A stretch of 64,000 nt of DNA from the NCBI GenBank assembly GCA_019638475.1, contig JAHBTR010000004.1:62001-126000 (forward strand), read 5' to 3'. This stretch comes from Chitinophagaceae bacterium (lineage in GTDB: Bacteria > Bacteroidota > Bacteroidia > Chitinophagales > Chitinophagaceae). Positions 1,851 through 45,937 of this stretch are shown here, piece after piece (position 1 is the first letter of the stretch; each line of letters starts with the position of its first letter). A program made the translations under genes and the position numbers. The notes under the pieces are model-generated. The model did no database searches and was not told where the DNA came from. It saw nothing but the letters and a program-made list of their open reading frames with translations.

Positions 1851-1895
1851 TTATACTTATTGAAGTGCTAAAAATATTTGCATAATACTTAACTA

Positions 1896-1927: not shown

Positions 1928-1995
1928 GTTTTATACTAAATTACTTTATTACAAAAAAAGACTTCTTACAGCACCATACTATAAAAATATGCACC

Positions 1996-2003: not shown

Positions 2004-2038
2004 CTTCATTATTTCATACTGATAAAGCAAGTTTTACA

Positions 2039-2845: not shown

Positions 2846-2875
2846 CAAAATGTATATTTATCGTTAAAGCATACA

Positions 2876-3697: not shown

Positions 3698-3769
3698 ATT
3701 AATTGACGTTTTTTACCTATTGTGCCATAACACTCTGCCAAACTTCAATGGCTTACTCATTCAAATGAT

Positions 3770-3777
3770 TATCTTTG
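3770..3777 (+). promoter_or_regulatory. -7 promoter element (TATCTTTG) directly in front of mtaB
   Basis: TATCTTTG is a full match to TAnnTTTG. Its last base is only 4 bases before the ATG at 3782, so with the usual spacing transcription would start at or next to the A of that ATG. This predicts a leaderless mRNA for mtaB. Confidence 0.6.
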
Positions 3778-3781
3778 CAAA

Positions 3782-20115: not shown

Positions 20116-20973
20116 ATGCAAGAGCATCAAAGGACATTGGAAGAAAAAGTTTATAAAAGCAATAATCATTACAGTGTAACTAAAATTATAAAAGACAGTT
20201 TGAATGGGTATGCTAAGTCTTTTTATCTTGCCAAGCAATTAGCAAGCAGAGATATAAAAGCTTTATACAGGCAGTCTTTATTAGGTTTTTTTTGGGCTAT
20301 TGCTCCCGTAATTATGAATGCTGCTGTTTGGATTTTTTTACAAAGTACCGGTACTGTAAGATTGTCTGATACAGGCATACCATACCCTGTTTTTGTTATT
20401 TTGGGAACTACATTTTGGATATTAATAAGTGAATGTTTGTTATTGCCTACGGAAACCATTAATGCCAATAAATCTATTATTACCAAAATCAATTTTCATA
20501 AAGAGGCATTAATTACTTTGGGTATTCTAAAATTGGGGTTCAACCTGCTAATTAAGCTGGGGTTGGTTGTTGTGTTTCTTTGCATATTTAAAATATTGCC
20601 CTCTGCTTCTATACTATTTTTTATTCCTGTATTACTATTTACCGTTATAGCCTTTGTAAGTATAGGAACTATTATATCTCCCATTGGAGTTTTGTATAAC
20701 GATATTGGTAAAGCCCTGCCAATAGCCATGCAATTACTCATGTATGTAACACCTGTGGTGTATGCAGTACCCAAATCAGGTATTATGAAATTGCTGATGA
20801 GTTGGAACCCTTTATCATACATAATTATCAACATCAGAAACAGCCTTACAGGAGGCAGTGTTGATGTTTTATTTATTGTACTATTGGGCATTGCAGCCAT
20901 TGTACTGGCATTAATTGCTATGCTCATATACAGAATAGCTATGCCTGTAATAACAGAAAGAATGAGTGCATAA
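20116..20973 (+). CDS. wzm: ABC-2 type polysaccharide export permease (Wzm-like)
   Basis: The 285-residue protein has an N-terminal cytoplasmic part, the typical motif DIKALYRQSLLGFFWAIAPVIMNA before the first membrane segment, and about six membrane segments ending in ALIAMLIYRIAMPVI. It forms the inner-membrane channel that exports a finished, lipid-linked glycan in the ABC-transporter-dependent pathway. The ATPase gene overlaps or follows directly. Together they show that a chain is completed in the cytoplasm before export, which differs from the Wzx/Wzy set at the other end of the locus. Confidence 0.92.
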   Translation: MQEHQRTLEEKVYKSNNHYSVTKIIKDSLNGYAKSFYLAKQLASRDIKALYRQSLLGFFWAIAPVIMNAAVWIFLQSTGTVRLSDTGIPYPVFVILGTTFWILISECLLLPTETINANKSIITKINFHKEALITLGILKLGFNLLIKLGLVVVFLCIFKILPSASILFFIPVLLFTVIAFVSIGTIISPIGVLYNDIGKALPIAMQLLMYVTPVVYAVPKSGIMKLLMSWNPLSYIIINIRNSLTGGSVDVLFIVLLGIAAIVLALIAMLIYRIAMPVITERMSA

Positions 20974-20983
20974 TAAATTAACT

Positions 20984-22204
20984 ATGGGAGAAGTATTAAT
21001 AAAAGCGGAAAATGTATCTAAAAAGTTTGCCAAAGACTTTAAAAGAAGCTTGTACTATGGCGTAAAAGATGTATTTAGTAAGGTAAGTGGTGGGGAGAGG
21101 AAGAAAGAACTACGCAAAACTGAATTTTGGGCGGTAAAAGATGTGAGTTTTGAAGTAAAGAGGGGAGAATGTTTGGGATTGATAGGGCATAATGGAGCAG
21201 GTAAAAGCACTTTATTAAAAATGCTGAATGGTTTAATAGCACCCGATGAAGGCTCTATTACCATGAGAGGGAAAATAGGAGCATTGATAGAATTAGGAGC
21301 AGGCTTTAATCCCATACTTACCGGTAGAGAAAATATTTACAACAATGCCTCTGTATTAGGGTTTACCAAAGAAGAAGTAAATAAAAAATTTGACAGTATT
21401 GTAGAGTTTTCTGAAATAGGCGAATTTTTAGATATGCCTGTACAGAACTACAGCAGTGGTATGAAAGTTCGTTTGGGTTTTGCAGTAGCTGCACAAATGG
21501 AACCTGATATTTTATTGATAGATGAAGTATTGGCAGTGGGAGATATGGGCTTTGTATTAAAATGTTTTAAACGTATAGATGAAATTTTACCACATACAGC
21601 AGTAATTTTTGTTTCACATAGTATGCCTATGGTTTCTCGTATATGTACACAAATTACTTTGATGAATAAAGGAGTCATACAATACTATGGAGTTGATGTT
21701 GGAAAAGGAATTGACAGCTATTATCAGCACTTTTCTGCTGGAGAAAATGCGTATGAAGTTTATTCAAATCAAACATTAAAATTTATTTCTGCATCGGTTA
21801 AAGATAGAAATATAGAGGGAGGTAATTTTATTATAGGATGGAATGAAGATGTTGAGATGATATTTAATTTACAAGTACTTCAACCACTTCTTTCTCCTTT
21901 ATGTAGTATAGCTATATATAATCAGGAGCAAAGAGGTATTGCAGAGAGTAAAACAACAATAAGTTTAGATATTGAAGATGAACAATACTTTAAAAATGAC
22001 ACCTTAATAATTAAGATGAGCACAAAAAAATTATCCTTGTCTAAAGGTATTTATTCTATTACGCTTAATATAAGTGATAAAAAGAGTAGCAGCCCTATTC
22101 TTAAAATAAATAATGCTTTAAACATACAAGTAACCAATGCTGCTCAAACATGGACTTCATATTTGTTAGATATTGATACTGTTATATCTAAATCAAAAAT
22201 TTAA
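20984..22204 (+). CDS. wzt: ABC transporter ATPase with C-terminal carbohydrate-binding-like domain (Wzt-like)
   Basis: The N-terminal ~240 residues form the ATPase: Walker A GHNGAGKST near residue 70, NYSSGMKVRLGFAVA signature, Walker B DILLIDEVLAVGD. The last ~150 residues are predicted beta-rich (SVKDRNIEGGNFIIGWNEDVEMIFNLQ; KGIYSITLNISD) and match the position of Wzt C-terminal domains that recognise the capped end of the exported glycan. A GTG at 20966 would add six residues and overlap the permease; I prefer the ATG at 20984. The next two genes may make the cap this domain recognises. Confidence 0.9.
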   Translation: MGEVLIKAENVSKKFAKDFKRSLYYGVKDVFSKVSGGERKKELRKTEFWAVKDVSFEVKRGECLGLIGHNGAGKSTLLKMLNGLIAPDEGSITMRGKIGALIELGAGFNPILTGRENIYNNASVLGFTKEEVNKKFDSIVEFSEIGEFLDMPVQNYSSGMKVRLGFAVAAQMEPDILLIDEVLAVGDMGFVLKCFKRIDEILPHTAVIFVSHSMPMVSRICTQITLMNKGVIQYYGVDVGKGIDSYYQHFSAGENAYEVYSNQTLKFISASVKDRNIEGGNFIIGWNEDVEMIFNLQVLQPLLSPLCSIAIYNQEQRGIAESKTTISLDIEDEQYFKNDTLIIKMSTKKLSLSKGIYSITLNISDKKSSSPILKINNALNIQVTNAAQTWTSYLLDIDTVISKSKI

Positions 22205-22224: not shown

Positions 22225-22905
22225 ATGAATGAAATAAAGTTATTAACTTTTGAAGACTACTTTGCTAAAGTAAAAGAATTAGAAGGTGGGCATTGGACTT
22301 TAGATACCATTAAACTAAGATGGACTTACCATTATAGGGTTGTTGAATTAATAAAAGCCTTACAATTAAAAGATGCTTCTAAGGTTTTGGAAATGGGTAC
22401 AATGGGAGTTCAGTGTGTGAAAAACGGGCATACAATAGACTATGCAGAAAGATGGAATTTCCCTGGTAAACAACCTGATTATTTACATGATGCTAGAAAA
22501 TTACCTTGGCCAATAGAAGATAAAAAATATGATTTGTTTATTGCATTAAGAGTTTATCAACACCTTGTTCCTGTACAGAAAGAATGTGTACAGGAAGCTA
22601 TGCGTATAGCTAAAAAAGTCATTATTATTACGCCTAATTATTATGATAACAATGTACTTCCTGATTCTCGTGGTATAACCTATACAAATTTTGTTGAATT
22701 TCTTAATGGTATTCACCCTAATTTATATATACCAACAGAATTGGGAGACCTTTATTATTGGGATACAGAGCAACCTTCTGCATTAAATATAGAGCAAGTT
22801 GTTAGCCCTACTATCAAATACCCAAAAAATGATACTTCCGAAAGTTCATTTAAAGATAGTTTCTCACGAAAAATAAAAAGAAAAATCAAAAGGTTATTAA
22901 AATAA
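22225..22905 (+). CDS. Class I SAM-dependent methyltransferase-like protein
   Basis: The 226-residue protein has a degenerate motif I (KVLEMGTMGVQCV instead of the usual E/DxGxGxG), a DARKLPWPIEDKKYDLFIALRVYQHL stretch typical of class I methyltransferases (motifs II-III) and KKVIIITPNYYDN after it. It ends in a very basic tail (RKIKRKIKRLLK). The weak glycine motif makes methyl transfer likely but not certain. It lies directly after the Wzt gene and before a P-loop kinase-like gene, an arrangement that recalls glycan end-capping functions. Confidence 0.75.
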   Translation: MNEIKLLTFEDYFAKVKELEGGHWTLDTIKLRWTYHYRVVELIKALQLKDASKVLEMGTMGVQCVKNGHTIDYAERWNFPGKQPDYLHDARKLPWPIEDKKYDLFIALRVYQHLVPVQKECVQEAMRIAKKVIIITPNYYDNNVLPDSRGITYTNFVEFLNGIHPNLYIPTELGDLYYWDTEQPSALNIEQVVSPTIKYPKNDTSESSFKDSFSRKIKRKIKRLLK

Positions 22906-22914
22906 TAGACTATA

Positions 22915-23658
22915 ATGAGAAGTAAGATTTTGAATTTTATTTTACGTAAGAAACCAAAAACAAAACCTCAATTTGAATTTTTAGATAATTACATTATAGA
23001 ATTTATTGGACCCGCGGGTGTAGGTAAAAGTACTTTATATAAAAAAATACTTGAGAATGCTAACTTTAATTCTCCTACAATAGAAGAATTAAATAGCATC
23101 ATAAAAAAAGACGACATCTATAACATTTCTACTTCTATTCATAATACGCTATTAAATTCAAAATTTCAAAACTTAATGCAGAGAGGGTATAATGCTTATG
23201 TAAATGCAGAATTAATAAACTACTTTTCAAGTGTAATTAAAAAGGATATAACTATTCAATATACCCCTTCTCAAAAAGGAATAATTTTAGAAGAAGGGCT
23301 TTGTCATAATTTCTCAAAAGAGTTGGTATCATTAAATAATGCAGACTTACAAACTATAACGCATAAGAGAGTACTTATTTATATTAGACCTGATGACTCC
23401 TTAACTGTTGTTAAGCGTATTAGAAAAAGACAACAGGAAGGTGAGCATACTGTTACACATCACAATGGAAAATCTGACGATGAACTAAAGGATATTAGTA
23501 AAACTTCTATTACAAGTTTTGATAACTTAATTGAAGCAATAGCAAACTTTCAAATTCCTTATTTCACTGTTAAGGCAGAGGAAACTAATAATGCTCATTT
23601 GGTATTGCAATTTTTAAAAGACAAGAAAATAGTTACAGAACGCTTAAATCAAGCTTAG
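22915..23658 (+). CDS. P-loop kinase-like protein
   Basis: The 247-residue protein has a Walker A (FIGPAGVGKSTLYKKI, about residues 30-45), an ILEEGLCHN segment where nucleoside-monophosphate-kinase folds carry the acidic Walker B region, and an Arg-rich lid-like stretch (VVKRIRKRQQEGEHT). This suggests phosphoryl transfer to a small molecule or sugar. I do not recognise a specific family. It is placed nine bases after the methyltransferase-like gene and five before a sugar aminotransferase gene. A role in capping the exported chain is inference from position. Confidence 0.7.
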   Translation: MRSKILNFILRKKPKTKPQFEFLDNYIIEFIGPAGVGKSTLYKKILENANFNSPTIEELNSIIKKDDIYNISTSIHNTLLNSKFQNLMQRGYNAYVNAELINYFSSVIKKDITIQYTPSQKGIILEEGLCHNFSKELVSLNNADLQTITHKRVLIYIRPDDSLTVVKRIRKRQQEGEHTVTHHNGKSDDELKDISKTSITSFDNLIEAIANFQIPYFTVKAEETNNAHLVLQFLKDKKIVTERLNQA

Positions 23659-23663
23659 TTTCA

Positions 23664-24734
23664 ATGATTCCCGTTACCAAAACATTTCTTCCACCAATCA
23701 AAGAATATAATTCTTGGGTACAAAAAGCCTTTGACAATAACTGGCTTACCAACAGAGGAGAATTGGTAAAAGAATTAGAAGAAAAACTAATAGCTTATTT
23801 GGGTATTGACTGGATAACTATTACCAATAATGGTACAGTACCTTTGCAAATAGCCTTAAAACTATTAGGTAAAGGAGGAGAAATTATTACAACGCCTTTC
23901 AGTTATGTTGCTACAACAGCCTCTATTGTTTGGGAAAACTGTACTCCTGTTTTTGTGGACATTCACCCAGAATATTTAACCATTGACGAAACTAAAATAG
24001 AAGCAGCCATAACCGAAAAAACAACCTGTATTCTGGCAACGCATGTTTTTGGCAATCCTTGTAATATAGAAGCCATAGAGCAAATTGCTAGTAAGCATAA
24101 ATTAAAAGTAATTTACGATGCTGCCCATTGTTTTGGTGTAAATTATAACGGGCAAAGTATTTTTAATTATGGCAATGTAAGCACTTGCAGTTTTCACGCA
24201 ACCAAGCTCTTTCATACAGCCGAAGGCGGAGCGATGTTCACCAATGATAAAGAATTGCAACACAAACTTTATTACAGCCATAATTTTGGACATAAAACCC
24301 AACTTGATTTTCACGGTTTAGGAATTAATGCCAAAATCTCTGAATTACAAGCAGCAATGGGACTTTCTGTACTTCCGTATATGCAAGAGATTTTGGATTC
24401 AAGAAAAAAAGTAATCGAAACATACGATTCAATTCTTGACTTTTCTAAACTGCAAAAACTAAAAATCAGAGAAAACACCAAATGGAATTACAGTTACTAT
24501 CCTATAATTTTTGAATCAGAAGAAAAATTACTGGAGACACAAAAAAAGCTGAACGAAAACAATATCTTTCCAAGACGGTATTTTTATCCGAGTTTGAATA
24601 ATTTGCCTTATATTGATAAACAGATGATGCCTATTTCAGAAAGTATTGCCAAGCGAATTTTGTGTTTACCGTTGTATGTAGGGTTAACGGTAGAAGAAAT
24701 AGAAAACATTATCAGCTTCTTGGTTAATCAATAA
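23664..24734 (+). CDS. DegT/DnrJ/EryC1/StrS sugar aminotransferase
   Basis: A PLP-dependent aminotransferase of 356 residues with the PLP lysine at Lys181 in SFHATKLFHTAEGGA and YDAAHCFGV at 151-159. The compact length and HATKLFHTAEGG motif are typical of enzymes that aminate C4 or C3 of dTDP- or GDP-linked 4-keto or 3-keto 6-deoxyhexoses (for example toward Qui4N, Fuc4N or Fuc3N). The product would be an amino sugar ready for N-acylation, which fits the acyl-making cassette just downstream. The exact sugar cannot be read from the sequence. Confidence 0.87.
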   Translation: MIPVTKTFLPPIKEYNSWVQKAFDNNWLTNRGELVKELEEKLIAYLGIDWITITNNGTVPLQIALKLLGKGGEIITTPFSYVATTASIVWENCTPVFVDIHPEYLTIDETKIEAAITEKTTCILATHVFGNPCNIEAIEQIASKHKLKVIYDAAHCFGVNYNGQSIFNYGNVSTCSFHATKLFHTAEGGAMFTNDKELQHKLYYSHNFGHKTQLDFHGLGINAKISELQAAMGLSVLPYMQEILDSRKKVIETYDSILDFSKLQKLKIRENTKWNYSYYPIIFESEEKLLETQKKLNENNIFPRRYFYPSLNNLPYIDKQMMPISESIAKRILCLPLYVGLTVEEIENIISFLVNQ

Positions 24735-24763
24735 TAAATAAATAAATAAATAAATAAATAAAT
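24733..24763. repeat. Tetranucleotide (ATAA)n microsatellite, about seven units
   Basis: An uninterrupted run of about seven ATAA units begins at the stop codon of the aminotransferase gene and lies 70 bases before the next start. Slippage here would change the spacing between two genes of the locus but not a reading frame. Confidence 0.85.
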
Positions 24764-24834
24764 TCCTTTTATATATCTATAATTGGGATGAAAATGAAAC
24801 ATTGAAATTAAAAACTTCAATAAAAATTTAATAT

Positions 24835-25647
24835 ATGCTTGATTCATATTTTTTTATACCAGCAGATAAACCTAAATTCATAGAAAAGGCATCTACTTTA
24901 AAGGTAGATTATTTGGTATATGATTTAGAAGATGCCGTTCCTAACACTAATAAATTAGTAGCGTATGAGCAATTGATCGAATTGAAATTAACTGGAAATG
25001 AATACGTTAGAATTCCTTTTCTTGATAACATATTTAGTTCTGGACAATTAAAAAACCTCATAAATCATTTTAATGAAAGGATAGTTATTCCTAAAATAAG
25101 CTCAACAGCAGATTTTGAAACCATTAAACATTATTTTGCTGGTAATAAAAGAAATATCATCTTACTGATAGAAAATTCTAAGGCTCTTATTAATTTGAAA
25201 AACATTCTTGAAGCTTATCACCCATATATTCAGGCAGTAGGGTTTGGAACACACGATTTTACATCTGAGATAGGAATGATACATTCTTTAAAAAATTTAG
25301 AGCAGTTCAAAAGGGAAATTATAGTAACTGCACACGCCTTTGGTATTTCCTATATAGATAGTGTAGATTTAAACTTAAACGATTCACAGACATTTATTGA
25401 AGAAAGTCTTTTCGCTTATCAGAATGGAGCAATTGGAAAATTTTTAATTCATCCTAATCAGGTACAATTTTTGAAAAAAATACCTTTTATAACAGAAGAT
25501 GAGTTTAATAAGTTAAAGACTGTGTATGAAAAGTTTAAATTTATTGACCCCAATAAAATAGAAGTTTATAGAATTGACGGAGAGGTTTATGAAAAGCCAC
25601 ACATCAATAGAATTATTAAATTATTTAATAAATTGAATAAAAAATAG
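24835..25647 (+). CDS. HpcH/HpaI aldolase / citrate lyase beta-like (CitE-like) protein, first copy
   Basis: A TIM-barrel CitE-family protein of 270 residues. Family landmarks are present: LVYDLEDAV near residue 30 (substrate contact), VIPKIS, the metal-binding Glu in ILLIENSKAL, the second metal ligand in GFGTHDFTSEIG, and the closing KFLIHPNQVQFLKK. Family members cleave or form beta-hydroxyacyl-CoA thioesters (citryl-, malyl- or methylmalyl-CoA). Such enzymes are unusual in a polysaccharide locus. It forms a set with the MaoC-like gene 5 bases downstream and a second CitE-like gene. Confidence 0.85.
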   Translation: MLDSYFFIPADKPKFIEKASTLKVDYLVYDLEDAVPNTNKLVAYEQLIELKLTGNEYVRIPFLDNIFSSGQLKNLINHFNERIVIPKISSTADFETIKHYFAGNKRNIILLIENSKALINLKNILEAYHPYIQAVGFGTHDFTSEIGMIHSLKNLEQFKREIIVTAHAFGISYIDSVDLNLNDSQTFIEESLFAYQNGAIGKFLIHPNQVQFLKKIPFITEDEFNKLKTVYEKFKFIDPNKIEVYRIDGEVYEKPHINRIIKLFNKLNKK

Positions 25648-25652
25648 AAGTT

Positions 25653-26120
25653 ATGGAAGCAAATAAAATGGGAAATTATTTTGAAGACTTTAATGTTGGA
25701 GAAGTGATAAAACACTGTCAGTCTAAAACCATTTTTGAATCTGACAATAATCTTTTTTCTCTGTTGACAATGAATCATCATCCCGTTCACATCAATATTG
25801 ATTATTGCAAAGACAACCAACACAATCAGATTTTAGTTCCTGGGACATTAGTTTTTTGTTTGGCTGTACACTTGACTGTAATGGATATTAGCGGAAAAGC
25901 TATCGCCAATTTAGCTTATGAAAACATAGAACATTTACATCCTACATTTATAAACGATACAATTTATAGTAAAACTGAAATATTGGATAAGACCGAGTCA
26001 AAAACAAAAAATGACAGAGGAGTTGTCTATGTTGAAACTGTAGGTTACAACCAAAATGGTATAGATGTTATTCGTTTCAGAAGGAAAATACTAATTAAAA
26101 AGAGAAATAATGAAAAATAA
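25653..26120 (+). CDS. MaoC-like hot-dog dehydratase/hydratase
   Basis: The 155-residue protein opens with NYFEDFNVGEVIKHCQSKTIFESD and has the MaoC catalytic region LTMNHHPVHINIDYCK, where the usual Asp/His pair appears as Asn and His. The form MNxxPxH is, to my knowledge, seen in MaoC proteins that sit next to CitE-like genes. VPGTLVFCLAVHL follows at the expected place. The family adds or removes water across the double bond of an enoyl-CoA. The start could also be the ATG at 25668 (MGNYFEDF). The 3' end overlaps the second CitE-like gene by 11 bases, so the three are one unit. Confidence 0.85.
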   Translation: MEANKMGNYFEDFNVGEVIKHCQSKTIFESDNNLFSLLTMNHHPVHINIDYCKDNQHNQILVPGTLVFCLAVHLTVMDISGKAIANLAYENIEHLHPTFINDTIYSKTEILDKTESKTKNDRGVVYVETVGYNQNGIDVIRFRRKILIKKRNNEK

Positions 26121-27018
26121 AATGCAACTGTTACGGAGTATGATGTTTGTACCCGGACACAACGAAAAACTGATAGACTCTGCTTCAAGAAGTACAGCCG
26201 ATGCTCTTATATTCGATTTGGAAGACAGTGTACAACCTGAATCCAATAAAATAATAGCACGAGAAATTATTGTGAATAATTCAAAAAAAGAAGAATTTAA
26301 TCACTTTCAAAAATTTGTAAGACTGAACGAAATTGGAACCGAATTTTTCTTACAAGATGTACTACAAGTGACATTGGGCAATATAGACGGTTTTTTGCTT
26401 TCAAAGACAAATACAAAAGAAGATGTTCAATATTTGGACAATCTTTTAACTTCCATAGAAAAAGAAAGACATTTAGAATTAGGTCGCTTTTCTATTATCC
26501 CTATTTTAGAAAGTGCTCAATCAATTGTAAATATTAACGAAATAGCTACAAGTTCTAAAAGAATAATCGCCTTAGGTTTCGGTTCGGAAGATTATGTTTC
26601 AGATATACAAGGGGTAAGAGATTTTGAAACGAATATTAGTATTAGCTATCCACGTAGTTTAGTGCCAATTGTAGCCAGAGCTTATGGTTTAGAAGCAATA
26701 GATGCTGCGTATATCAAAGTTCACGATTTAGAAGGATTAGAAAGACACTTAAATACCGGAAAAATATTAGGATATGGAGGTATGTGGGTTTTGCACCCAA
26801 AACAAAATGAATTGGCAAATCAGTATTTTGCCCCAACAGAACAAGAATATAATAGCTCTGTAGAATTTTTAAGGTTATATGAAGAGGCTAAGAAAATAAA
26901 TAAAGGAGTAGCCATTATTGAAGGGAAATTTGTCGGACCTCCTTTGATTACAAAATCGAAAGATATTATAGCACGTTACGAAATGATTCAACAAAGAAAA
27001 CAGTTATGGAAAAAGTGA
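26110..27018 (+). CDS. HpcH/HpaI aldolase / citrate lyase beta-like (CitE-like) protein, second copy
   Basis: A 302-residue CitE-family protein that differs clearly from the first copy. It keeps RSMMFVPGHNEKLI at the start (as in malyl-CoA/citramalyl-CoA lyases), ALIFDLEDSVQ, the metal-ligand region IPILESAQSI, LGFGSEDYVSDIQG and GGMWVLHPKQNELA near the end. The longer C-terminus with GKFVGPPLITKSKDIIARY is also seen in CoA-ester lyases. Both copies look catalytically intact, which argues for two different steps and not a redundant duplication. It overlaps the PglD-like gene by 13 bases. Confidence 0.87.
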   Translation: MKNKMQLLRSMMFVPGHNEKLIDSASRSTADALIFDLEDSVQPESNKIIAREIIVNNSKKEEFNHFQKFVRLNEIGTEFFLQDVLQVTLGNIDGFLLSKTNTKEDVQYLDNLLTSIEKERHLELGRFSIIPILESAQSIVNINEIATSSKRIIALGFGSEDYVSDIQGVRDFETNISISYPRSLVPIVARAYGLEAIDAAYIKVHDLEGLERHLNTGKILGYGGMWVLHPKQNELANQYFAPTEQEYNSSVEFLRLYEEAKKINKGVAIIEGKFVGPPLITKSKDIIARYEMIQQRKQLWKK

Positions 27019-27674
27019 TTATAATTGGAGGCAAGAGTTCTGCTACACTAATAGCAGATTATATATATGACGCTCAGCATAAATATAATATGCCTATTGA
27101 ATGCCTTGGTTTCGCGTATGATAATGAACCTGTCGGTACTGATATAAATGGATTCCCTGTTCTTTGTAATGTAGCAGATGTATATTCTGAATACGAAAAC
27201 GATAAAAATGTAAAGTTTATTTTTCAGATGTACGATATTCAGGATATGCTGAAAACGATAGAATTTAAAGATAGTCTAGGTATTCCTGAAGATAGATATT
27301 GTACTTTTATTCACCCAAGTTGTTTCATTGCAAGAAGTTCTGAAATTGGTGCAGGAACTGTTATTTTAGCTCATTCGGTAGTTAATCCGAAAGCTAAAAT
27401 AGGGAAGTTTAACACTTTTGTAAGCGGAGTAACCATTGGTCACGATGCTGTAGTAGGAGATTATAATTTGGTAGCTACTCAAGCTATTATTGCTAATGTA
27501 ATTATGGGAAGCCGTAATTTTGTGGGTATAAATGCTACTACAAATAATAAAATAACGATTGGAGATGATTGCCAAATAGGCATGGCTTCAAATGTCGTTA
27601 AAGACGTTCCTTCAGGAACAAAGTGTTTTGGTAATCCTGCAAAACCTGTAGATACCCCTAAAAGATTAAGATAA
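27006..27674 (+). CDS. PglD/NeuD-family sugar acyltransferase
   Basis: The 222-residue protein has the N-terminal Rossmann-like PglD domain (EKVIIIGGKSSATLIADYIYD) and a C-terminal left-handed beta-helix of hexapeptide repeats (IGAGTVILAHSVVNPKAKIGKF and following). The likely catalytic base His lies in GVTIGHDAVVGDY. The family N- or O-acylates nucleotide-linked sugars, classically using acetyl-CoA on UDP-4-amino sugars. Its 13-base overlap with the CitE-like gene suggests that it uses the acyl-CoA made by the CitE-MaoC-CitE set on the amino sugar made by the aminotransferase at 23664. Confidence 0.88.
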   Translation: MEKVIIIGGKSSATLIADYIYDAQHKYNMPIECLGFAYDNEPVGTDINGFPVLCNVADVYSEYENDKNVKFIFQMYDIQDMLKTIEFKDSLGIPEDRYCTFIHPSCFIARSSEIGAGTVILAHSVVNPKAKIGKFNTFVSGVTIGHDAVVGDYNLVATQAIIANVIMGSRNFVGINATTNNKITIGDDCQIGMASNVVKDVPSGTKCFGNPAKPVDTPKRLR

Positions 27675-27681
27675 TTAGTAT

Positions 27682-28539
27682 ATGGACAATCTTCTTGTAT
27701 CAATATCTTGTACTACTTATAACCACGCTCCTTATTTTAGAGAATGTTTAGATGGTTTTTTGATGCAAAAATGCAATTTTGATTTTGAAGTTTTAATTCA
27801 CGATGATGCTTCGACTGACGGCACTTCTGATATTATTAGAGAGTACCAAGCCAAATACCCCAAAATTATCAAACCTATTATACAAGAAGAAAATCAATGG
27901 TCACAAGGAATAAAGCCAACTTGGGAGTTTAATTTTCCAAGAACCAAAGGAAAATATATTGCTCTTTGTGAAGGCGATGACTATTGGACAGACCCTTTAA
28001 AACTTCAAAAACAGGTTGATTTTTTAGAGCAAAATGAAGACTTTGTAGGGTGTTTTCATAACACTTATTACGCAGATGAACGCAAAGGGAAAACATCCGA
28101 ATTGATACCATGGAGAAAATATGACAGAGATATTTTTACTACAGAAGACACTATTCATACTGCATCTCTGTTTCATACAACATCATATCTATTTCGGAAT
28201 TTAAAAATTAAAATTCCTTTAGTAGAAGGTGTTTATAGCGGAGATATGCTGTTATTGGGAGTTATCTCAAAATATGGAAAATTAAAATTATTGCCCGATT
28301 TTATGTCTGTGTACAGAAAGAATGATGGTGGCATTACTTCTGAAGAAAATATAATAAAATACCATAGAAACAGAATTATTCTAACCCAATTTTTAAACCA
28401 ATATTTTGATTATAAATATGAAAGAAAAGCCAAACAAATTTTGAACCATCATAAAAATGAGATATTTAAGATTAAATACCCTTTTCTTTTTAAAATAAAA
28501 GAATTGATTATTTTTAGGTTTTATAATCTATCAAAATGA
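27682..28539 (+). CDS. Glycosyltransferase family 2
   Basis: A GT-A fold glycosyltransferase of 285 residues. It starts LLVSISCTTYNHAPYFRECLDGFLMQKCNFDFEVLIHDDASTDGT, the nucleotide-binding region of GT2, and has the metal-binding motif in CEGDDYW near residue 95. It should add one sugar in the cytoplasm to the growing lipid-linked chain. The stop overlaps the ATG of an 18-codon gene stub (28536). Confidence 0.88.
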   Translation: MDNLLVSISCTTYNHAPYFRECLDGFLMQKCNFDFEVLIHDDASTDGTSDIIREYQAKYPKIIKPIIQEENQWSQGIKPTWEFNFPRTKGKYIALCEGDDYWTDPLKLQKQVDFLEQNEDFVGCFHNTYYADERKGKTSELIPWRKYDRDIFTTEDTIHTASLFHTTSYLFRNLKIKIPLVEGVYSGDMLLLGVISKYGKLKLLPDFMSVYRKNDGGITSEENIIKYHRNRIILTQFLNQYFDYKYERKAKQILNHHKNEIFKIKYPFLFKIKELIIFRFYNLSK

Positions 28540-28592
28540 ATATAGCAATCCTAACTCCTTCTCAAAACTCATATTCTGAACCCTTTCTTTAA
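28536..28592 (+). pseudogene. Five-prime stub of a GT4 glycosyltransferase gene
   Basis: The ATG overlaps the preceding stop (ATGA). The 18 codons read MNIAILTPSQNSYSEPFL and then a stop. This matches the start of the intact GT4 at 29308 (MTKILAIFSPNKNAYSETFI) in spacing and in the xSP-x-N-x-YSExF pattern. I read it as the remnant of a related glycosyltransferase gene cut off where the methyltransferase gene at 28601 now begins. Confidence 0.6.
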
Positions 28593-28600
28593 GTATAATT

Positions 28601-29305
28601 ATGGATAATTTTATCAATATACCTTTCACATCAAAAAACTTAGACCGTTATGTGGTTAGAAATGCTATTCTTAGCGCTTTAAGAGAGAGCCTACCTTTTT
28701 TAAATGGTTCTTTATTAGATATTGGATGCGGTAAAATGCCATACAAAAACTATATTTTAGAAAATAGCCATGTAAAAAAATATGTAGGTTTAGATATTGA
28801 AAATGCTTTAGAATATGATAAATCAGTAAAGTCTGATTTTACTTGGGATGGTAAGGTTATGCCATTTGAAGATTTAAGTTTTGATTGTGCTTTTGGTACT
28901 GAGGTTCTCGAACATTGCCCTGAACCAGAAGTTGTTCTAAAAGAAACTTATCGTGTGTTAAAAGCGGGTGGTTGTTTTTTCTTTACCGTTCCGTTTTTGT
29001 GGCCATTACATGAAGTGCCTTTTGATGAATATAGATATACCCCATTTTCATTAAAACGACATTTGGAAAATTCGGGATTTAGTAATATTGAGATTAATGC
29101 ACTTGGAGGATGGCATGCTTCTATGGCGCAAATGATTGGATTGTGGGTAAGAAGGTCTCACTTGGGAGCAACTAAAAGAAAAGCCCTCTCTTGGGCACTA
29201 AAGCCTGTAATTAATTATCTAATAAAAAAAGATAAAGGAGTGAACGTTAAATTTATAGACACTACAATGATAACGGGGTTATACGGTTGTGCGTATAAAA
29301 AATAA
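28601..29305 (+). CDS. Class I SAM-dependent methyltransferase
   Basis: The 234-residue protein has a good motif I (LLDIGCGKMPYKNYI), an acidic end of strand 2 (VGLDIEN), motif II-like FDCAFGTEVLEHCPEP and post-motif YRVLKAGGCFFFTVPF. This is the Methyltransf_11 type, likely to methylate a sugar hydroxyl of the polysaccharide or its precursor. It sits between a glycosyltransferase stub and an intact glycosyltransferase gene, three bases before the latter. Confidence 0.87.
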   Translation: MDNFINIPFTSKNLDRYVVRNAILSALRESLPFLNGSLLDIGCGKMPYKNYILENSHVKKYVGLDIENALEYDKSVKSDFTWDGKVMPFEDLSFDCAFGTEVLEHCPEPEVVLKETYRVLKAGGCFFFTVPFLWPLHEVPFDEYRYTPFSLKRHLENSGFSNIEINALGGWHASMAQMIGLWVRRSHLGATKRKALSWALKPVINYLIKKDKGVNVKFIDTTMITGLYGCAYKK

Positions 29306-32812: not shown

Positions 32813-32852
32813 TTAAGAAAAACCATCATTGAAAAAAAACTTAATAAATATC

Positions 32853-33998
32853 ATGAAAGCAATTCCTTATGGAAGGCAACATATTACTCAGTTAGATATT
32901 GATGCAGTTGTAGAAACTTTACAATCAGATTTTCTTACACAAGGTCCTAAAATAGCTGAGTTTGAAAATAATTTTGCAAAATATATTGGCTGTAAATATG
33001 CTGTTGCTGTTGCCAATGGTACAGCAGCTTTACATTTATGTGCTATGGCAATGAATGTTCAAAAAGGAGATAAGGTAATAACAACGCCTATCACATTTGC
33101 AGCGTCTGCCAACTGTATTGAATATTGTGGTGGTGAAGCTGTTTTTGCAGACATCAATTCCAATACTTATTTATTAGATATTAATAAAGTTCGTGCATTA
33201 TTAGAAGCTGCACCTAAAGGTACTTATAAAGGTATTATTCCTGTTGATTTTGCAGGTGCTGCTATCAACTTAGAAGAGTTGAAAAAATTAGCCGATGAAT
33301 TTGAATTATGGATAATTGAAGATGCTTGTCATGCACCTGGTGGCTTCTTTATTGATAACAAAGGAACAAAGCAACTATGTGGTAATGGACAATTTGCAGA
33401 TGTAGCAATATTTTCTTTTCATCCTGTAAAACATATTGCAACTGGAGAAGGTGGTATGATTACTACCAACAGTAAAGAAATATATGATAAACTTTGCTTA
33501 TTACGAACACATGGTATTACCAAAACACCGGAATTACTACAAGAAAATCATGGAGGTTGGTATTATGAAATGCAAGCGTTAGGCTATAATTATCGTATGT
33601 GCGATATGCAAGCAGCTCTTGGAATTACACAATTACAACGTGCCGATGATGGATTACAAAAAAGAAAGCAAATTGCTAAAATATATGATGAAGCATTTGC
33701 TTCAAATAAAAATATAGAAATACCCATCTATAATAATGGTCATGCCTTTCACCTATACATCATTAAAGTAAAAGACAGATTAGGACTATACAATTATTTA
33801 AGGGCTAAAAATATTTTTGCTCAAGTACATTATATTCCTGTTCATACCATGCCTTACTATCAACATAAAGGATATAAAAAAGGCGATTATCCAATAGCAG
33901 AAAAATATTATGAAGCATGTTTAAGTATTCCAATGTACCCAACATTAACCAATGAAGAGCAACAATATGTAATTACTTGTATAAATGAGTTTGTTTAA
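32853..33998 (+). CDS. pseC: PseC-type UDP-4-amino-4,6-dideoxy-N-acetyl-altrosamine transaminase
   Basis: PseC aminates C4 of UDP-2-acetamido-2,6-dideoxy-L-arabino-hexos-4-ulose in pseudaminic acid synthesis. The N-terminus IPYGRQHITQLDIDAVVETL and FLTQGPKI are PseC hallmarks, and the PLP lysine is Lys193 in FSFHPVKHIATGEGG. From the ATG at 32853 the protein has 381 residues, the usual length; an upstream TTG at 32829 is less likely. The stop overlaps pseF by 14 bases. PseB, the enzyme before it in the pathway, is not in the window. Confidence 0.93.
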   Translation: MKAIPYGRQHITQLDIDAVVETLQSDFLTQGPKIAEFENNFAKYIGCKYAVAVANGTAALHLCAMAMNVQKGDKVITTPITFAASANCIEYCGGEAVFADINSNTYLLDINKVRALLEAAPKGTYKGIIPVDFAGAAINLEELKKLADEFELWIIEDACHAPGGFFIDNKGTKQLCGNGQFADVAIFSFHPVKHIATGEGGMITTNSKEIYDKLCLLRTHGITKTPELLQENHGGWYYEMQALGYNYRMCDMQAALGITQLQRADDGLQKRKQIAKIYDEAFASNKNIEIPIYNNGHAFHLYIIKVKDRLGLYNYLRAKNIFAQVHYIPVHTMPYYQHKGYKKGDYPIAEKYYEACLSIPMYPTLTNEEQQYVITCINEFV

Positions 33999-34680
33999 TA
34001 ACATAGCTATTATTCCTGCACGTGGTGGCAGTAAACGTATTCCAAGAAAAAATATCAAAGAATTTTTAGGCAAACCAATTATTGCATATTCTATTCAAAC
34101 AGCCATACAAAGCAACTTGTTTAATGAAATAATGGTTTCTACAGATGATGAAGAAATAGCAACAATAGCAAAACAATATGGAGCAAAAGTTCCATCTATG
34201 CGTAGTAGTAAAAATGCTGATGATTATGCTACAACAATAGATGTGCTCAATGAAGTACTCAACTTTTATAAAAATGATAACAAGCATTTTGATTATGCTT
34301 GTTGCATTTATCCAACAGCTCCATTGGTAAACGTAGCACAGTTAAACAATGGGTTTGAAAAATTACATACCAATAAAGCAGATGCAGTTTTTCCAATAGT
34401 AGCTTTTAGTTACCCTATATGGCGTAGTGTAGAAGTTGATGAAAATGGATATACAAAAATGCTGTGGAACGAATATTTAAAATCACGTTCACAAGATTTG
34501 AAAAAAGTTTATCATGATGCAGGTCAATGGTATTGGTTTAATCCAAACAAAATAACCAACTCTTTATTTACAGATAATACAACTTCAATTATTCTTAAAG
34601 AAGATGAAGTACAAGATATAGATACACCAACCGATTGGTTATTGGCAGAAATGAAATATAAAATACTTTATCATCAATAA
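33985..34680 (+). CDS. pseF: CMP-pseudaminic acid synthetase (PseF-like)
   Basis: A 231-residue cytidylyltransferase with the N-terminal CTP-binding motif IIPARGGSKRIPRKNI and the CCIYPTAPLV region of the CMP-sugar synthetase family. It activates the nine-carbon sugar as the CMP-linked donor, the final step before transfer. Its placement directly after pseC and in the same module as pseI supports PseF over a CMP-sialic acid synthetase. The stop and the next ATG overlap by one base (TAATG). Confidence 0.9.
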   Translation: MSLFNNIAIIPARGGSKRIPRKNIKEFLGKPIIAYSIQTAIQSNLFNEIMVSTDDEEIATIAKQYGAKVPSMRSSKNADDYATTIDVLNEVLNFYKNDNKHFDYACCIYPTAPLVNVAQLNNGFEKLHTNKADAVFPIVAFSYPIWRSVEVDENGYTKMLWNEYLKSRSQDLKKVYHDAGQWYWFNPNKITNSLFTDNTTSIILKEDEVQDIDTPTDWLLAEMKYKILYHQ

Positions 34681-35243
34681 TGCGTAAGTATTTGTGTTTA
34701 CAAAAAAATGAGTTTCAATTTAAAAGCTACAAATTAGTTCCAATTCGTGATGAAGATAAGTATGTCATCATGCAATGGCGTAACGAACAGATTGATATTT
34801 TGCGTCAAAAGCAGTTACTAACTAAAGAGCATCAAGAAAACTATTTTTCAACAGTTGTTACAAATTTATTCAAGCAAGAAAAACCTCAACAAATACTTTT
34901 TAGCTTTTTAGAAAATGATACATTGATTGCTTATGGAGGATTAGTACATATTGATTGGGAAAGTAAAAATGCAGAGATTTCTTTTCTTTTATCAACAGAG
35001 TTGAATAATCAAATAAATATTTTTAAGCATAAATGGGATATTTATTTAAAGATGCTAACAGGTATTGCATTTAATGAATTAGAGTTTCACAAAATATATA
35101 CTTATGCTTATGATATTAGAGACTATTATTTTGAAGTAATGTATAAACAAAATTTTTTTAAAGAAGCTCACCTAAAAGAACATATTCTTATTAATAATAG
35201 ATTAGTAGATATTCTTATTTTATCAAAAATGAATAATGGATGA
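34680..35243 (+). CDS. pseH: GNAT-family acyltransferase (PseH-like)
   Basis: The 187-residue protein reads as a GNAT N-acetyltransferase: YKLVPIRDEDKYVIMQWRNEQI at the start, LIAYGGLVHIDWESKNAEISFLLS in the central acetyl-CoA-binding region, and FNELEFHKIYTYAYDIRDYYFEVMYKQNFFKE at the end. PseH transfers acetyl to the C4 amino group made by PseC. Sequence and position both fit, although a formyltransferase gene follows in the same module, so which acyl group ends up at this nitrogen is open. Its last bases overlap the next ATG (ATGA). Confidence 0.8.
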   Translation: MRKYLCLQKNEFQFKSYKLVPIRDEDKYVIMQWRNEQIDILRQKQLLTKEHQENYFSTVVTNLFKQEKPQQILFSFLENDTLIAYGGLVHIDWESKNAEISFLLSTELNNQINIFKHKWDIYLKMLTGIAFNELEFHKIYTYAYDIRDYYFEVMYKQNFFKEAHLKEHILINNRLVDILILSKMNNG

Positions 35244-36121
35244 ATGTTGGGTTATTAATTAGCGGACATTTGGGTAAAATTATTTTAAATGAATTATTAG
35301 CTTGTAATCATTCACTAACTTTTGTATTTACTGATTTTAATTCGAAAGAAATCATTGATACTTGCGAAAAGAATAAGATTCCACACTTTAAAGGTAATCC
35401 AAGAAATGGAAATGCAACTTCATTTATACAAACTGTTTCAACACCTGATTTATTATTATCTGTAAATTATTTGTTTATTATTGATAATGATATAATAGAT
35501 AAAACAAAGGGCTTTTCAATTAATATTCATGGTTCTTTACTTCCAAAATATAGAGGTAGAACTCCACATGTTTGGGCAATTATTAATGGAGAGAATGTAA
35601 CTGGCATAACTGCTCATATTTTAACAACAGCATGCGATGAAGGAGATATTATTTATCAAGAAAGTATAGAAATTAATAAAGATGATACAGGATATGATAT
35701 ATTGCAAAAATTCAATAGCTTTTATCCAAGTATTGTTTTTAAAATTATATCAATGGTTGAAAGGAATGAAGTAAGAAAAATTCCTCAACAACATAGTAAT
35801 GCAACCTATTTTGGTAAAAGAACACCTGAAGATGGTTTAATTAATTGGAGTTGGCACAAGGAAAGAATAAAAAATTGGGTTAGAGCACAAGCCAATCCTT
35901 ACCCTGGTGCATTTAGCTTTTATAATGGAAATAAAGTTATTATACAAAAAATTGACTTCTCAGAATTTGGATTTAATTATAATGATACAAATGGAAAAAT
36001 TTTATCTATTGATAATGGAATAATTGTAAAAACTCCTAATGGAGCAATTACCATTTCTGAATATTCATCTTCTAACAACAACATTTTTGAGATAGGAAAA
36101 AACTTTGATAATGGAAATTAA
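35240..36121 (+). CDS. Sugar N-formyltransferase (methionyl-tRNA formyltransferase-like)
   Basis: A 293-residue protein of the formyl-THF-dependent transferase family with the catalytic triad Asn95, His97 and Asp133 (SINIHGSLLPKYRGRTPHVWAI and TTACDEGDI). The C-terminal ~90 residues (INWSWHKERIKNWVRAQANPYPGAFSF) are the domain found in Fmt-like sugar formyltransferases. It should put a formyl group on an amino sugar, as ArnA-type and VioF-type enzymes do. It takes the place where pseG is often found in pse operons. It overlaps pseH by 4 bases and pseI by 11. Confidence 0.88.
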   Translation: MNVGLLISGHLGKIILNELLACNHSLTFVFTDFNSKEIIDTCEKNKIPHFKGNPRNGNATSFIQTVSTPDLLLSVNYLFIIDNDIIDKTKGFSINIHGSLLPKYRGRTPHVWAIINGENVTGITAHILTTACDEGDIIYQESIEINKDDTGYDILQKFNSFYPSIVFKIISMVERNEVRKIPQQHSNATYFGKRTPEDGLINWSWHKERIKNWVRAQANPYPGAFSFYNGNKVIIQKIDFSEFGFNYNDTNGKILSIDNGIIVKTPNGAITISEYSSSNNNIFEIGKNFDNGN

Positions 36122-37160
36122 AATAGGTAACCATATAATAAGCAATAACCATAAGCCTTTTATTATTGCTGAAATGAGTGGCAATCATAACCAATCATTA
36201 GAACGTGCTTTAGCTATTGTAGATGCTGCTGCAGAAACTGGTGTACAGGCTCTAAAATTACAAACTTATACTGCCGATACTATTACTATGAAAGGTGCTT
36301 ATACCATCAATGATAAAAACTCATTGTGGTATGGCAAAGAGTTACACGACTTATACAAAGAAGCATATACTCCTTGGGAATGGCATAAACCAATTTTTGA
36401 TAGAGCAAAAGAAAAAGGAATGTTAGCTTTTAGCTCTCCATTTGACGAAACTGCTGTAGATTTTTTAGAAAGTTTAGATGTGCCAGCATATAAAATTGCA
36501 TCATTTGAAAATACACATCATCCATTATTAAGAAAAGTTGCTGCTACTGGAAAACCTATTATTATGTCCACTGGTGTAAGTACTTTACAAGATATTCAAG
36601 AAAGTGTAGAAGTATTAGGAAATGCAGGATGTAAAGAACTAATTCTTTTAAAATGTACCAGCACTTATCCAGCAACTCCAGAAAATACCAATTTACTGAC
36701 TATACCAGACATGTTTCAAAAATATACTTGTATGATTGGCTTATCAGACCATACAATGGGTATTGGCGTTAGTATTGCTTCTGTGGCTTTAGGTGCAAGG
36801 GTTATTGAAAAACATTTTACATTAAAACGTGCAGATGGAGGTGTTGATAGTGCTTTCTCTATGGAACCAGATGAAATGAAAGCCTTAGTAATAGAAAGCG
36901 AAAAAGCATTTATAGCTTTAGGAAAAATACAATATGGTATTCAACCAGCAGAAGAAAAAAGTATATTTTTTAAACGTTCTATTTATGTAGCTAAAAATAT
37001 AAAGAGAGGAGAAGTTTTTTCTATAGACAATGTAAAAATTATTCGCCCAGCAAATGGTTTAGCACCAAAGTATTGGGACAATGTTTTAGGACAATATGCT
37101 AAAACAGATTTACAAGCTGGTAATCCATTAACAAAAGAAGATATTGAAAATTTCAGCTAA
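36111..37160 (+). CDS. pseI: Pseudaminic acid synthase (PseI)
   Basis: PseI condenses the 6-deoxy-2,4-diacylamino hexose with phosphoenolpyruvate to form pseudaminic acid. The protein has the NeuB-type TIM barrel (PFIIAEMSGNHNQSLERALAIVDAAAETGVQALKLQTYTADT) and the C-terminal SAF/antifreeze-like domain (RSIYVAKNIKRGEVFSIDNVKIIRPANGLAP). PseI-type features include LWYGKELHDLYKEAYTPWEWH. The ATG at 36111 (349 residues) is preferred to a TTG at 36105. Its acceptor must be freed from UDP by a PseG-type hydrolase that I do not find nearby. Confidence 0.94.
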   Translation: MEIKIGNHIISNNHKPFIIAEMSGNHNQSLERALAIVDAAAETGVQALKLQTYTADTITMKGAYTINDKNSLWYGKELHDLYKEAYTPWEWHKPIFDRAKEKGMLAFSSPFDETAVDFLESLDVPAYKIASFENTHHPLLRKVAATGKPIIMSTGVSTLQDIQESVEVLGNAGCKELILLKCTSTYPATPENTNLLTIPDMFQKYTCMIGLSDHTMGIGVSIASVALGARVIEKHFTLKRADGGVDSAFSMEPDEMKALVIESEKAFIALGKIQYGIQPAEEKSIFFKRSIYVAKNIKRGEVFSIDNVKIIRPANGLAPKYWDNVLGQYAKTDLQAGNPLTKEDIENFS

Positions 37161-45042: not shown

Positions 45043-45937
45043 ATGAGCCAAAGAAATAATTTAAGTTTTGGTTGTGTAGCTCTTACAACTTATAGTTTAA
45101 AAAGCAGAGCCATTAAAATGTTAGAGTTGGCTTATGATAATGGCATTACTAACTTTGATACAGCTCCTTTATACGGCAGAGGATATTCTGAAGAAATAGT
45201 GGGTAGTTTTATAAGAAATAAAAGAAGTAAAGTTGTAGTTACAACAAAAGTTGGTCTTGGCTCTTTAAATGAAAATTCAATACCTGCAAGCATTGCTTTA
45301 CCATTATACTCATTAAAAAGAAAATTAAAAAAACAATATAGTGCTACTATAAAAGTTCCTACAGAGTTACCCAAACCGTTAACTTATAGAAAAATTGATA
45401 AAAAATACATAGAACAATCATTACAACTAAGTTTAAAAAGATTAAAAACAGATTATATAGATAATTATTTTTTGCACGAAGCATTACCAAGTTTTATTAC
45501 AGATGAAGGATGGAGTTATTTACAAGAACTGAAAAAAAAAAGGAATAATTCTTAATATAGGTGTTGCTACAAGTTTTATAAATTTTAAAGATTTGCAGTT
45601 AAGCAATTATGATATTGATTTTTTACAGTACGAAAATAATTTTTATTCCAACTCTGATAGTTTGATAGAGCAGTATCCTTATACTAAACACAATTATCAT
45701 AGTGTTTTAAAATATATACCACTTATTAAGAGTAAACAATTTTCAACAAATGAAATTGCAGGTTTATTATTAAACAATGCAGTAAGAAAAAATAGTAGTG
45801 GAGGTTATGTTTTATTTTCTACTACAAAAAAAGAAAGGCTAATAAATAATTTAATTGAGTTTGATAAGTGTAATACATTATCATTATCTGAATTGAGCAA
45901 TAATATAAGTACACTTTACAATCAAAATAATTTATGA
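45043..45937 (+). pseudogene. Aldo/keto reductase with a homopolymer frameshift
   Basis: Two reading frames together make one aldo/keto reductase of about 297 residues. The first 165 residues or so (from 45043) contain the catalytic tetrad: Asp39 and Tyr44 in NFDTAPLYGRGY, Lys69 in VTTKVG and His145 in NYFLHEA. An A10 run at 45532-45541 then shifts the frame to a stop at 45555. With nine A residues the reading continues as KKKGIILNIGVATSFINFKDLQ and on to 45937, where the stop overlaps the next ATG (ATGA). That coupling and the complete length suggest a recent or variable shift. Confidence 0.8.

Follow-up and report, generated by a model that had tools for sequence, protein, structure and literature searches.

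A MaoC-CitE gene pair beside a PglD-like acyltransferase in Bacteroidota glycan loci: a probable acyl supply for amino-sugar N-acylation

The gene cluster

A stretch of 64,000 nucleotides (the window; positions 62001-126000 of contig 7 in a 2.59 Mb Chitinophagaceae genome of 12 contigs) contains, at 23664-27674 and within a polysaccharide locus, a cassette of five genes, all on the + strand, for a DegT aminotransferase, a CitE-like protein (CitE1), a MaoC-fold hydratase (MaoC), a second CitE-like protein (CitE2) and a PglD/VioB-like acyltransferase (PglD), which is considered here as a probable route to an amino sugar bearing an unusual acyl group. A first-pass annotation had recognised the five families, two clearly different CitEs with a MaoC between them and the tight packing of the last four genes, and all of this is borne out by the open reading frames (ORFs) and by Pfam and NCBIfam models: from the coordinates, CitE1 and MaoC are separated by 5 bases, MaoC and CitE2 overlap by 11, and CitE2 and PglD by 13. 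The DegT gene is more loosely attached, with 100 bases of 12% GC before CitE1. Family calls rest on Pfam and NCBIfam, and none of the five proteins reaches the cut-off of an NCBIfam model. The genes of the cassette and its immediate surroundings, all on the + strand, are as follows.

20116..20973, +, ABC-2 polysaccharide exporter membrane protein, Wzm-like (PF01061, 38.5 bits)
20966..22204, +, ABC exporter ATPase with Wzt C-terminal domain, Wzt-like (PF00005, 88 bits; PF14524, 35 bits)
23664..24734, +, DegT/DnrJ/EryC1 sugar aminotransferase, 356 residues (PF01041, 301 bits)
24835..25647, +, CitE1, CitE-like with E253 at the lid, 270 residues (PF03328, HpcH_HpaI, 85 bits)
25653..26120, +, MaoC-fold hydratase/dehydratase of a RipB/Mch-like branch, 155 residues (MaoC_dehydratas, 47 bits; MC_hydratase PF19315, 52 bits)
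26110..27018, +, CitE2, CitE-like with Gly276 at the lid, 302 residues (PF03328, HpcH_HpaI, 130 bits)
27006..27674, +, PglD/NeuD/VioB-like hexapeptide acyltransferase, 222 residues (Hexapep, 42 bits; NeuD_NnaD TIGR03570, 129.8 bits)
27682..28539, +, family 2 glycosyltransferase, next in the operon (PF00535, 71.8 bits)

Two genes lie between the exporter pair and the cassette, and glycosyltransferase and methyltransferase genes lie downstream of it; a homologue of the glycosyltransferase at 27682..28539 also comes after PglD in the related loci L016, L017 and L019. An AATA repeat (24733-24763, 7.8 perfect copies) begins inside the DegT stop codon and is a possible length-variable repeat before the cassette.

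The cassette proteins

The best NCBIfam model for MaoC is RipB/Ich (129 bits, cut-off 340), and its nearest PDB entries are a MaoC-domain dehydratase and a beta-methylmalyl-CoA dehydratase. All 37 aligned rows, some of them duplicates, have the Asn41-x4-His46 pair (this and the other residue alignments, for the Arg/Mg sites and PglD, still hold the duplicates L062-L064 and L068); it lies opposite the second half of the beta-methylmalyl-CoA dehydratase and recurs in the RipB-like neighbours of CitE genes. The protein sits near the hydratases of C5-dicarboxylyl-CoA esters.

CitE2 scores best against the citE model (194 bits, cut-off 443; RipC 121 bits, cut-off 375). Its AlphaFold2 model, with a predicted local distance difference test (pLDDT) score of 92.5, has the fold of the CitE-like superfamily, a TIM barrel ending in a helix-hairpin-helix lid, and Foldseek returns CLYBL first with malyl-CoA lyases among the best matches (TMq 0.80-0.86 for the top ten). 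The substrate Arg (R71) and the Mg-binding E134 are invariant in both alignments made, and the Mg-binding D161 is invariant in one and at least 90% conserved in the other, the roles of these residues being those given in the available part of PMC3832036. In that same part, Zarzycki and Kerfeld describe an Asp of the lid, the proton donor to the acyl-CoA enolate, as conserved across the superfamily with the sole exception of the malyl-CoA thioesterase group, which has Glu (PMC3832036). CitE2 departs from this rule: the position that profile alignment with 4l9y and 5vxc places opposite the lid Asp is Gly in 43 and Ser in three of 46 complete sequences (two cut sequences were left out), whereas Asp is kept in 18/18 CitE relatives outside such cassettes, four of them beside RipB-like MaoC genes. 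Lacking the lid Asp, CitE2 is, judged by its sequence, not an ordinary malyl- or citramalyl-CoA lyase, and the earlier proposal, with malyl- and citramalyl-type groups among its examples, is not supported as it was worded. The protein thus retains the residues for binding a hydroxy- or keto-carboxylate at Mg but has lost the customary acid/base that acts on the acyl carbon. Its family is large: in the protein collection, the CitE2 of locus L033 finds 4478 relatives at E<1e-60, counted whatever their gene neighbours.

CitE1 is a different protein, with 28% identity to CitE2 over its residues 2-238, and used as query it reveals no CitE-type gene in its own genome beyond these two. RipC is its best model (89 bits, cut-off 375), its AlphaFold2 structure (pLDDT 92.9) has a helix-hairpin-helix lid at the C-terminal end, and Foldseek gives CLYBL as the best match; the closest PDB relatives of both CitEs are CLYBL and malyl-CoA lyases. 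The substrate Arg (R59) and the Mg-binding E113 and D141 are invariant in the cassette alignment. At the lid, E253 lies opposite the Asp of CLYBL in the profile alignment and Glu is found in 32/32 cassette sequences, a residue-level likeness to the malyl-CoA thioesterase (Mcl2) subgroup.

These structural relatives bear on one alternative, by which the CitEs would be aldolases that extend a keto sugar with a carboxylate-bearing branch and make no acyl group at all. PF03328 does include pyruvate-type aldolases. Moreover, shewanellose, a C-branched sugar with a three-carbon carboxamide branch, is reported in the accessible part of PMC4052302. However, the nearest solved relatives and folds (CLYBL, malyl-CoA lyase, citramalyl-CoA lyase) are CoA-dependent and the regular partner, MaoC, belongs to a family of CoA-ester hydratases, so that this reading is regarded as quite improbable.

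An even smaller probability is given to the view that an itaconate/mesaconate catabolic operon lies by chance in a glycan locus. It takes its appeal from the best NCBIfam matches, RipB for MaoC and RipC for CitE1, but all the Rip scores quoted above are far under their cut-offs and the lid Asp of the non-cassette relatives is lost in the CitEs of the cassettes. Furthermore, no CoA-transferase gene was found among the ORFs scanned at 22225-29305, and the genome is without CoA_transf_3 (PF02515), other CoA-transferase families not having been searched. On scores, lid residues and gene context, a catabolic role (itaconate, mesaconate or glyoxylate shunt) was rejected.

For PglD, the best NCBIfam model is NeuD_NnaD (TIGR03570), at 129.8 bits below its cut-off of 160.8, and the best PDB relative is VioB (E 3e-15). 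Gly and His at G145-H146 are invariant in 32 aligned rows, and we take His146 to be the conserved catalytic His of the PglD/NeuD family. A signature of acyl specificity was sought in this alignment and none was found. The best model for DegT is DesI (240.5 bits, below the cut-off of 650).

Recurrence of the MaoC-CitE2 unit

A CitE1 profile search yielded 46 loci (L016-L061), 27 of which have a MaoC of at least 55% identity; the rest comprise two loci cut at CitE1 (L022, L024), two with a lone CitE1-like gene (L031, L042) and 15 distant CitE relatives outside cassettes. Counts of CitE1 within this set hold by construction, and a MaoC-anchored set of 28 loci, taken from the MaoC searches of the 59 relatives, the phylum and the order of G791 described below, with the query itself (L081) left out, is given apart. 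Short copies (L002, L003, L065-L067), later views (L077-L081) and seven duplicate rows were set aside before counting, while the near-identical relatives L037, L038 and L043, and likewise L036 and L058, were counted separately. After removal of duplicates, 49 distinct loci with a close MaoC are available.

The module is scattered and sparse, as follows from the low hit rates of the MaoC searches. Among 59 relatives, a MaoC of at least 55% identity occurs in three genomes (the own genome, G008 and G016), with 19/59 matching at E 0.001; 1/396 genomes drawn from the own order has it, namely the own genome, G008 and G016 being evidently outside the draw. At phylum level, 11/395 genomes match at E 1e-20, eight of them (the own included) at 59% identity or more and three with RipB-like proteins at 36-39%. 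The order to which G791 belongs, the Bacteroidia source of L033, gives 19/393 with G791 counted, and the genus of G710, from which the Tenacibaculum locus L035 comes, gives 4/97. Three further loci from that genus (extended as L125-L127) contain CitE1 and CitE2 in all cases and are left out of every count; L127 and L038 appear to be alike.

Where the module is found, its core is constant. In all 47 loci with room for it, CitE2 lies behind MaoC at a distance of no more than 1.2 kb and in the same orientation; it is the next gene in 46, and one gene separates the two in L091. CitE1 lies directly upstream in 32/49 distinct loci, a figure inflated by the CitE1-anchored fetch, and is present in just 11/28 MaoC-anchored loci; it is an optional accessory member, and the essential unit is therefore MaoC-CitE2 rather than two CitEs around a MaoC. 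The arrangement described by the first-pass annotation does recur in Bacteroidota glycan loci, with its first CitE optional. In L016-L019, identity to the window proteins is 84-92% for MaoC, 77-82% for CitE2 and 76-82% for PglD but 46-49% for CitE1, which would seem to evolve much faster or to be exchanged by allele swapping; the low identity beside conserved neighbours again makes it a peripheral member. It was also considered whether the Glu lid of CitE1 might serve CitE2 in a heteromeric active site. This was set aside because the Gly/Ser lid of CitE2 persists without an adjacent CitE1 and because genomes G461 and G687 hold MaoC-CitE2 and no gene scoring like CitE1 (best 50 and 36 bits, the 50-bit match of G461 being one further CitE-like gene on a different contig), the CitE1s of the other four genomes scoring at least 119 bits with the same query.

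A PglD-type gene adjoins the unit in 33/46 loci: directly after CitE2 in 27, just before MaoC in five and just before CitE1 in one, these six upstream genes having 22-37% identity to the reference PglDs. The position directly after CitE2 is taken in 24/30 loci with CitE1 and in 3/16 without it. Across the 24 loci in which the four genes are contiguous, the correlation of pairwise protein distances is strongest for MaoC-CitE2 (r 0.79), followed by CitE1-MaoC (0.69), CitE1-CitE2 (0.60), CitE1-PglD (0.53), CitE2-PglD (0.47) and MaoC-PglD (0.43); for each pair 0/2000 permutations were as high, host relatedness being uncorrected. Since the gene order recurs across many genomes, the arrangement is beyond chance.

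Sugar- or glycan-type reference matches surround the unit in 26/28 MaoC-anchored loci, the other two having a flippase-family neighbour (PF13440; L098/L121) or a NusG-like neighbour only, named by eye (L100). A cassette residing mostly outside glycan loci in a catabolic role, which the first-pass annotation had named as fatal to its proposal, was thus not seen, and the same count speaks against the chance catabolic operon discussed above.

Additional genes were observed in or beside some cassettes. A WbqC-family gene, a Pfam-less protein and/or an ATP-grasp gene occur at L019:9280-9908 (where the WbqC-like gene is split over two reading frames), L020:7814-9997, L021:3794-5456 and L040:12166-13814. 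In L028, a WbmS-like deacetylase (PF22537; 7124-7849) and a second related gene (10045 onwards) flank CitE1-MaoC-CitE2, and no PglD stands immediately behind CitE2.

Sugar pathways around the module

The module is found in several kinds of amino-sugar pathway, most labels coming from the best blastp match to a labelled protein of the window or of a locus; several of these reference proteins were named by eye, and representatives were checked against curated models. Above cut-off are RmlA and RmlB of L018 and PseB, PseC, PseF and PseI of L036; the FdtA family is recognised in L039.

In the first context (A), homologues of the window DegT (52-72% identity) precede CitE1 in nine other loci, together with RmlA and RmlB in four of the nine (L018, L020, L040, L046), with ABC exporter genes in L016, L019, L021 and L022, and with neither in L017. 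A dTDP-4-amino sugar is the likely product of these loci, and DegT is likely a 4-aminotransferase acting on a dTDP-4-keto-6-deoxysugar. Contig 7 also carries, at 134429-135472 and 8.4 kb past the window end, an RmlB homologue that shares 74% identity with the one of L018, so that dTDP-4-keto-6-deoxyglucose is likely available in the own genome. A variant (A') has FdtA-type ketoisomerases (L039, L044, L074, L083, L086) and likely leads to a dTDP-3-amino sugar.

In the second context (B), the module stands within pseudaminic acid clusters, in the order PseB-PseC-PseF-[CitE1-MaoC-CitE2-PglD]-PseG-PseI (L026, L033, L036, L037, L043, L058, L073); the cluster of L030 has additional genes, and in that of L029 PseB is not adjacent. 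Here, the cassette with its PglD occupies the slot of PseH, and a PseH above the cut-off of 93 bits was found in 0/9 genomes of this context, 1/14 control genomes exceeding it. PseG of L036 scores 81 bits against a cut-off of 153.6, which is compatible with an altered substrate but is no proof of one.

The third context (C) is bacillosamine-like, with an initiating sugar-phosphate transferase and a DegT (L027, L034, L035, L125) and a long UDP-N-acetylglucosamine 4,6-dehydratase-like protein in L027 and L034; it is the least certain, because the models for L027 are below cut-off. Finally, an Antibiotic_NAT gene (PF02522, the aminoglycoside-acetyltransferase family) stands directly after CitE2 in place of PglD in L121 (7247-8149) and one gene further beyond CitE2 in L120 (6231-7193); both are likely sugar acyltransferases.

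In L031 (region 2470-6046) and L042 (region 306-3939), a lone CitE1-like gene has a hexapeptide transferase gene on one side and a GFO/IDH dehydrogenase gene on the other; these clusters also have a DegT and a UDP-sugar dehydrogenase and resemble the pathway to 2-acetamido-3-amino-2,3-dideoxyglucuronic acid (GlcNAc3NA). The gene of L031 has Glu at the lid position, and that of L042 is split over two reading frames. N-malyl GlcNAc3NA is known in other bacteria, as stated in the part of PMC3210612 at hand.

Elsewhere in the window, an AbiEii-like nucleotidyltransferase (PF08843; 19460-20065) marks the edge of the polysaccharide locus, and a second amino-sugar cluster (32829-37160) with a DegT aminotransferase, a cytidylyltransferase, a GNAT, a formyltransferase and NeuB is consistent with an N-formylated nonulosonic acid. 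Two short ORFs, at 45043-45555 (a partial match to an aldo/keto reductase) and 46798-47472 (matching the C-terminal part of a GMC oxidoreductase only), are probably remnants.

Proposed function

Probably, the five genes make a nucleotide-linked amino sugar and cap its amine with a short acyl group, presumably bearing a carboxylate, that is built by MaoC and the CitEs and moved by the PglD-like enzyme. In this scheme, RmlA and RmlB would make dTDP-4-keto-6-deoxyglucose, and DegT would aminate C4 to give a dTDP sugar of the 4-amino-4,6-dideoxyglucose (Qui4N) type, as suggested by its context and its DesI/VioB-like relatives. MaoC and CitE2, whose pairing is observed, may interconvert a beta-hydroxyacyl-CoA and an enoyl-CoA and set up a carboxylated acyl-CoA bound to Mg. 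CitE1, with its Glu lid, would be accessory, either as a second lyase or as an editor resembling malyl-CoA thioesterase. PglD would then move the acyl group to the sugar amine, as its position and its standing in for PseH elsewhere suggest, and glycosyltransferases would assemble the chain for export by Wzm/Wzt.

The first-pass annotation had already proposed an unusual acyl-CoA serving PglD. The best reading remains that the cassette serves to provide a PglD-type enzyme with an acyl group for sugar N-acylation, because the genes behave as a unit, lie in glycan loci and, in several amino-sugar clusters, take the place of an acyl-transfer step; the parts given to the CitEs in that proposal need revision, CitE1 being optional and CitE2 having lost the lid Asp throughout. 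As for the acyl group, our leading guess is a carboxylated C4-C5 unit, with a citramalyl-, mesaconyl- or itaconyl-type C5 group first and malyl second. No isocitrate lyase (PF00463) was found in the own genome, which favours pyruvate over glyoxylate as the keto acid, although glyoxylate has other sources. If a C-C bond is formed by CitE2 at all, the enolate must arise otherwise than through a lid Asp, malonyl-CoA decarboxylation being one possibility. Glyceroyl, as in Pse5Am7Gra of Tannerella forsythia, was considered and no link is claimed; according to the available part of PMC6120980, no gene has yet been assigned to glyceroyl, and the run of pse genes is broken by ORFs whose function is not known. 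The 2-hydroxyglutaryl group of Flexibacter maritimus was likewise put aside, the strain with the known structure not having been identified; the cassette does occur in Tenacibaculum, where an uncultured member (L035) and another genome (L125) have it in bacillosamine-like loci.

Several points weigh against the proposed scheme. The product is a prediction from the genes, the sugar is identified by homology, and the DesI and NeuD models are below cut-off for the window proteins; an ordinary condensation of acetyl-CoA with a keto acid is doubtful because CitE2 is without the lid Asp of its superfamily; and the distance correlations include whatever host relatedness contributes. Moreover, 13/46 loci are without an adjoining PglD-type gene, the alignment of cassette-linked PglDs alone contains no residue that distinguishes them, the pseudaminic cluster of L124 holds MaoC-CitE2 together with a GNAT gene, and weaker GNAT matches to the PseH model in all 10 scanned genomes (best 58, cut-off 93) make a divergent PseH elsewhere possible. 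The last group of observations would in part suit a different destination for the acyl group, for instance esterification of a hydroxyl or placement by a transferase such as a GNAT, with PglD itself using acetyl-CoA. This is considered unlikely, since PglD-type genes adjoin the unit in most loci, those with CitE1 having PglD directly behind CitE2 as a rule, and the pseudaminic clusters have no other recognised acyltransferase at the PseH step.

Beyond the supply of a single sugar in the own genome, it is tentatively suggested that the module is a widespread plug-in cartridge, in which MaoC and an Asp-less CitE2 would build a carboxylated acyl-CoA through a CitE reaction not described so far, for instance one driven by malonyl-CoA decarboxylation or one acting on an enoyl-CoA handed over by MaoC, and PglD-type enzymes would place the product on several sugars (dTDP-4-amino, dTDP-3-amino, bacillosamine-type and pseudaminic-type). 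If so, it would represent a shared, undescribed surface modification of Bacteroidota. N-acyl groups help to set how phages and hosts see surface glycans, and many unusual ones are without known making enzymes; as the module is compact and spans several sugar pathways, naming its acyl group could cover many Bacteroidota glycans at once. That CitE2 has consistently lost the lid Asp but not its metal site also suggests that this well-known superfamily includes chemistry not yet assigned.

Comparison with known systems

That no described polysaccharide pathway has this arrangement, as the first-pass annotation held, fits the open-licence literature: among the matches listed, judged by titles and the starts of abstracts, none places a CitE or a MaoC in sugar acylation.

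In the anthrose operon of Bacillus, an enoyl-CoA hydratase, a sugar aminotransferase and an acyltransferase make an N-acylated sugar of the Qui4N type. The likeness lies in a dedicated acyl supply combined with a sugar N-acyltransferase, but the acyl-making enzymes differ, the anthrose hydratase being of the crotonase type and no CitE being known from that operon.

The itaconate enzymes RipB/Ich and RipC/Ccl share with the cassette the pairing of a MaoC hydratase with a CitE-type protein and are the closest NCBIfam models for MaoC and CitE1. In contrast, the cassette proteins score far below the cut-offs, have lost the lid Asp and lie in glycan loci, with no RipA-type gene.

Malyl-CoA lyase (Mcl) also has a MaoC-type partner, mesaconyl-CoA hydratase (Mch). 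The lyases have the CitE fold and the same Mg and Arg site, as far as described in the accessible part of PMC3832036, but Asp at the lid, where the cassettes have Gly/Ser in CitE2 and Glu in CitE1.

A close parallel is found in the O-antigen R-group genes wfpC-wfpG of Flavobacterium psychrophilum, where, according to the available part of PMC6519341, a PglD homologue is predicted to add 3,5-dihydroxyhexanoyl to the amine of a nucleotide amino sugar. Both cases would combine non-acetyl N-acylation by a PglD homologue with adjoining acyl-making genes; however, in F. psychrophilum genes resembling those of fatty-acid synthesis are proposed to assemble the acyl group on an acyl carrier protein (PMC6519341), whereas MaoC and CitE-type genes are found here and a scan of ten ORFs in and near the cassette recognised no carrier protein. 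In the searched portions of PMC6519341 and PMC6120980, neither 'citrate lyase' nor 'MaoC' was found.

As regards the product, N-malyl and 2-hydroxyglutaryl amino sugars are recorded for Pseudoalteromonas rubra, Vibrio vulnificus and Flexibacter maritimus in the accessible part of PMC3210612. They share a carboxylated N-acyl group on an amino sugar with the proposed product and make such a group chemically plausible; the genes behind these sugars are not named there. Genes that would make an acyl group beside a sugar aminotransferase and an acyltransferase are found in the window and in related loci, and the cassette may be filed as a further form of custom sugar N-acylation, with different acyl-making enzymes.

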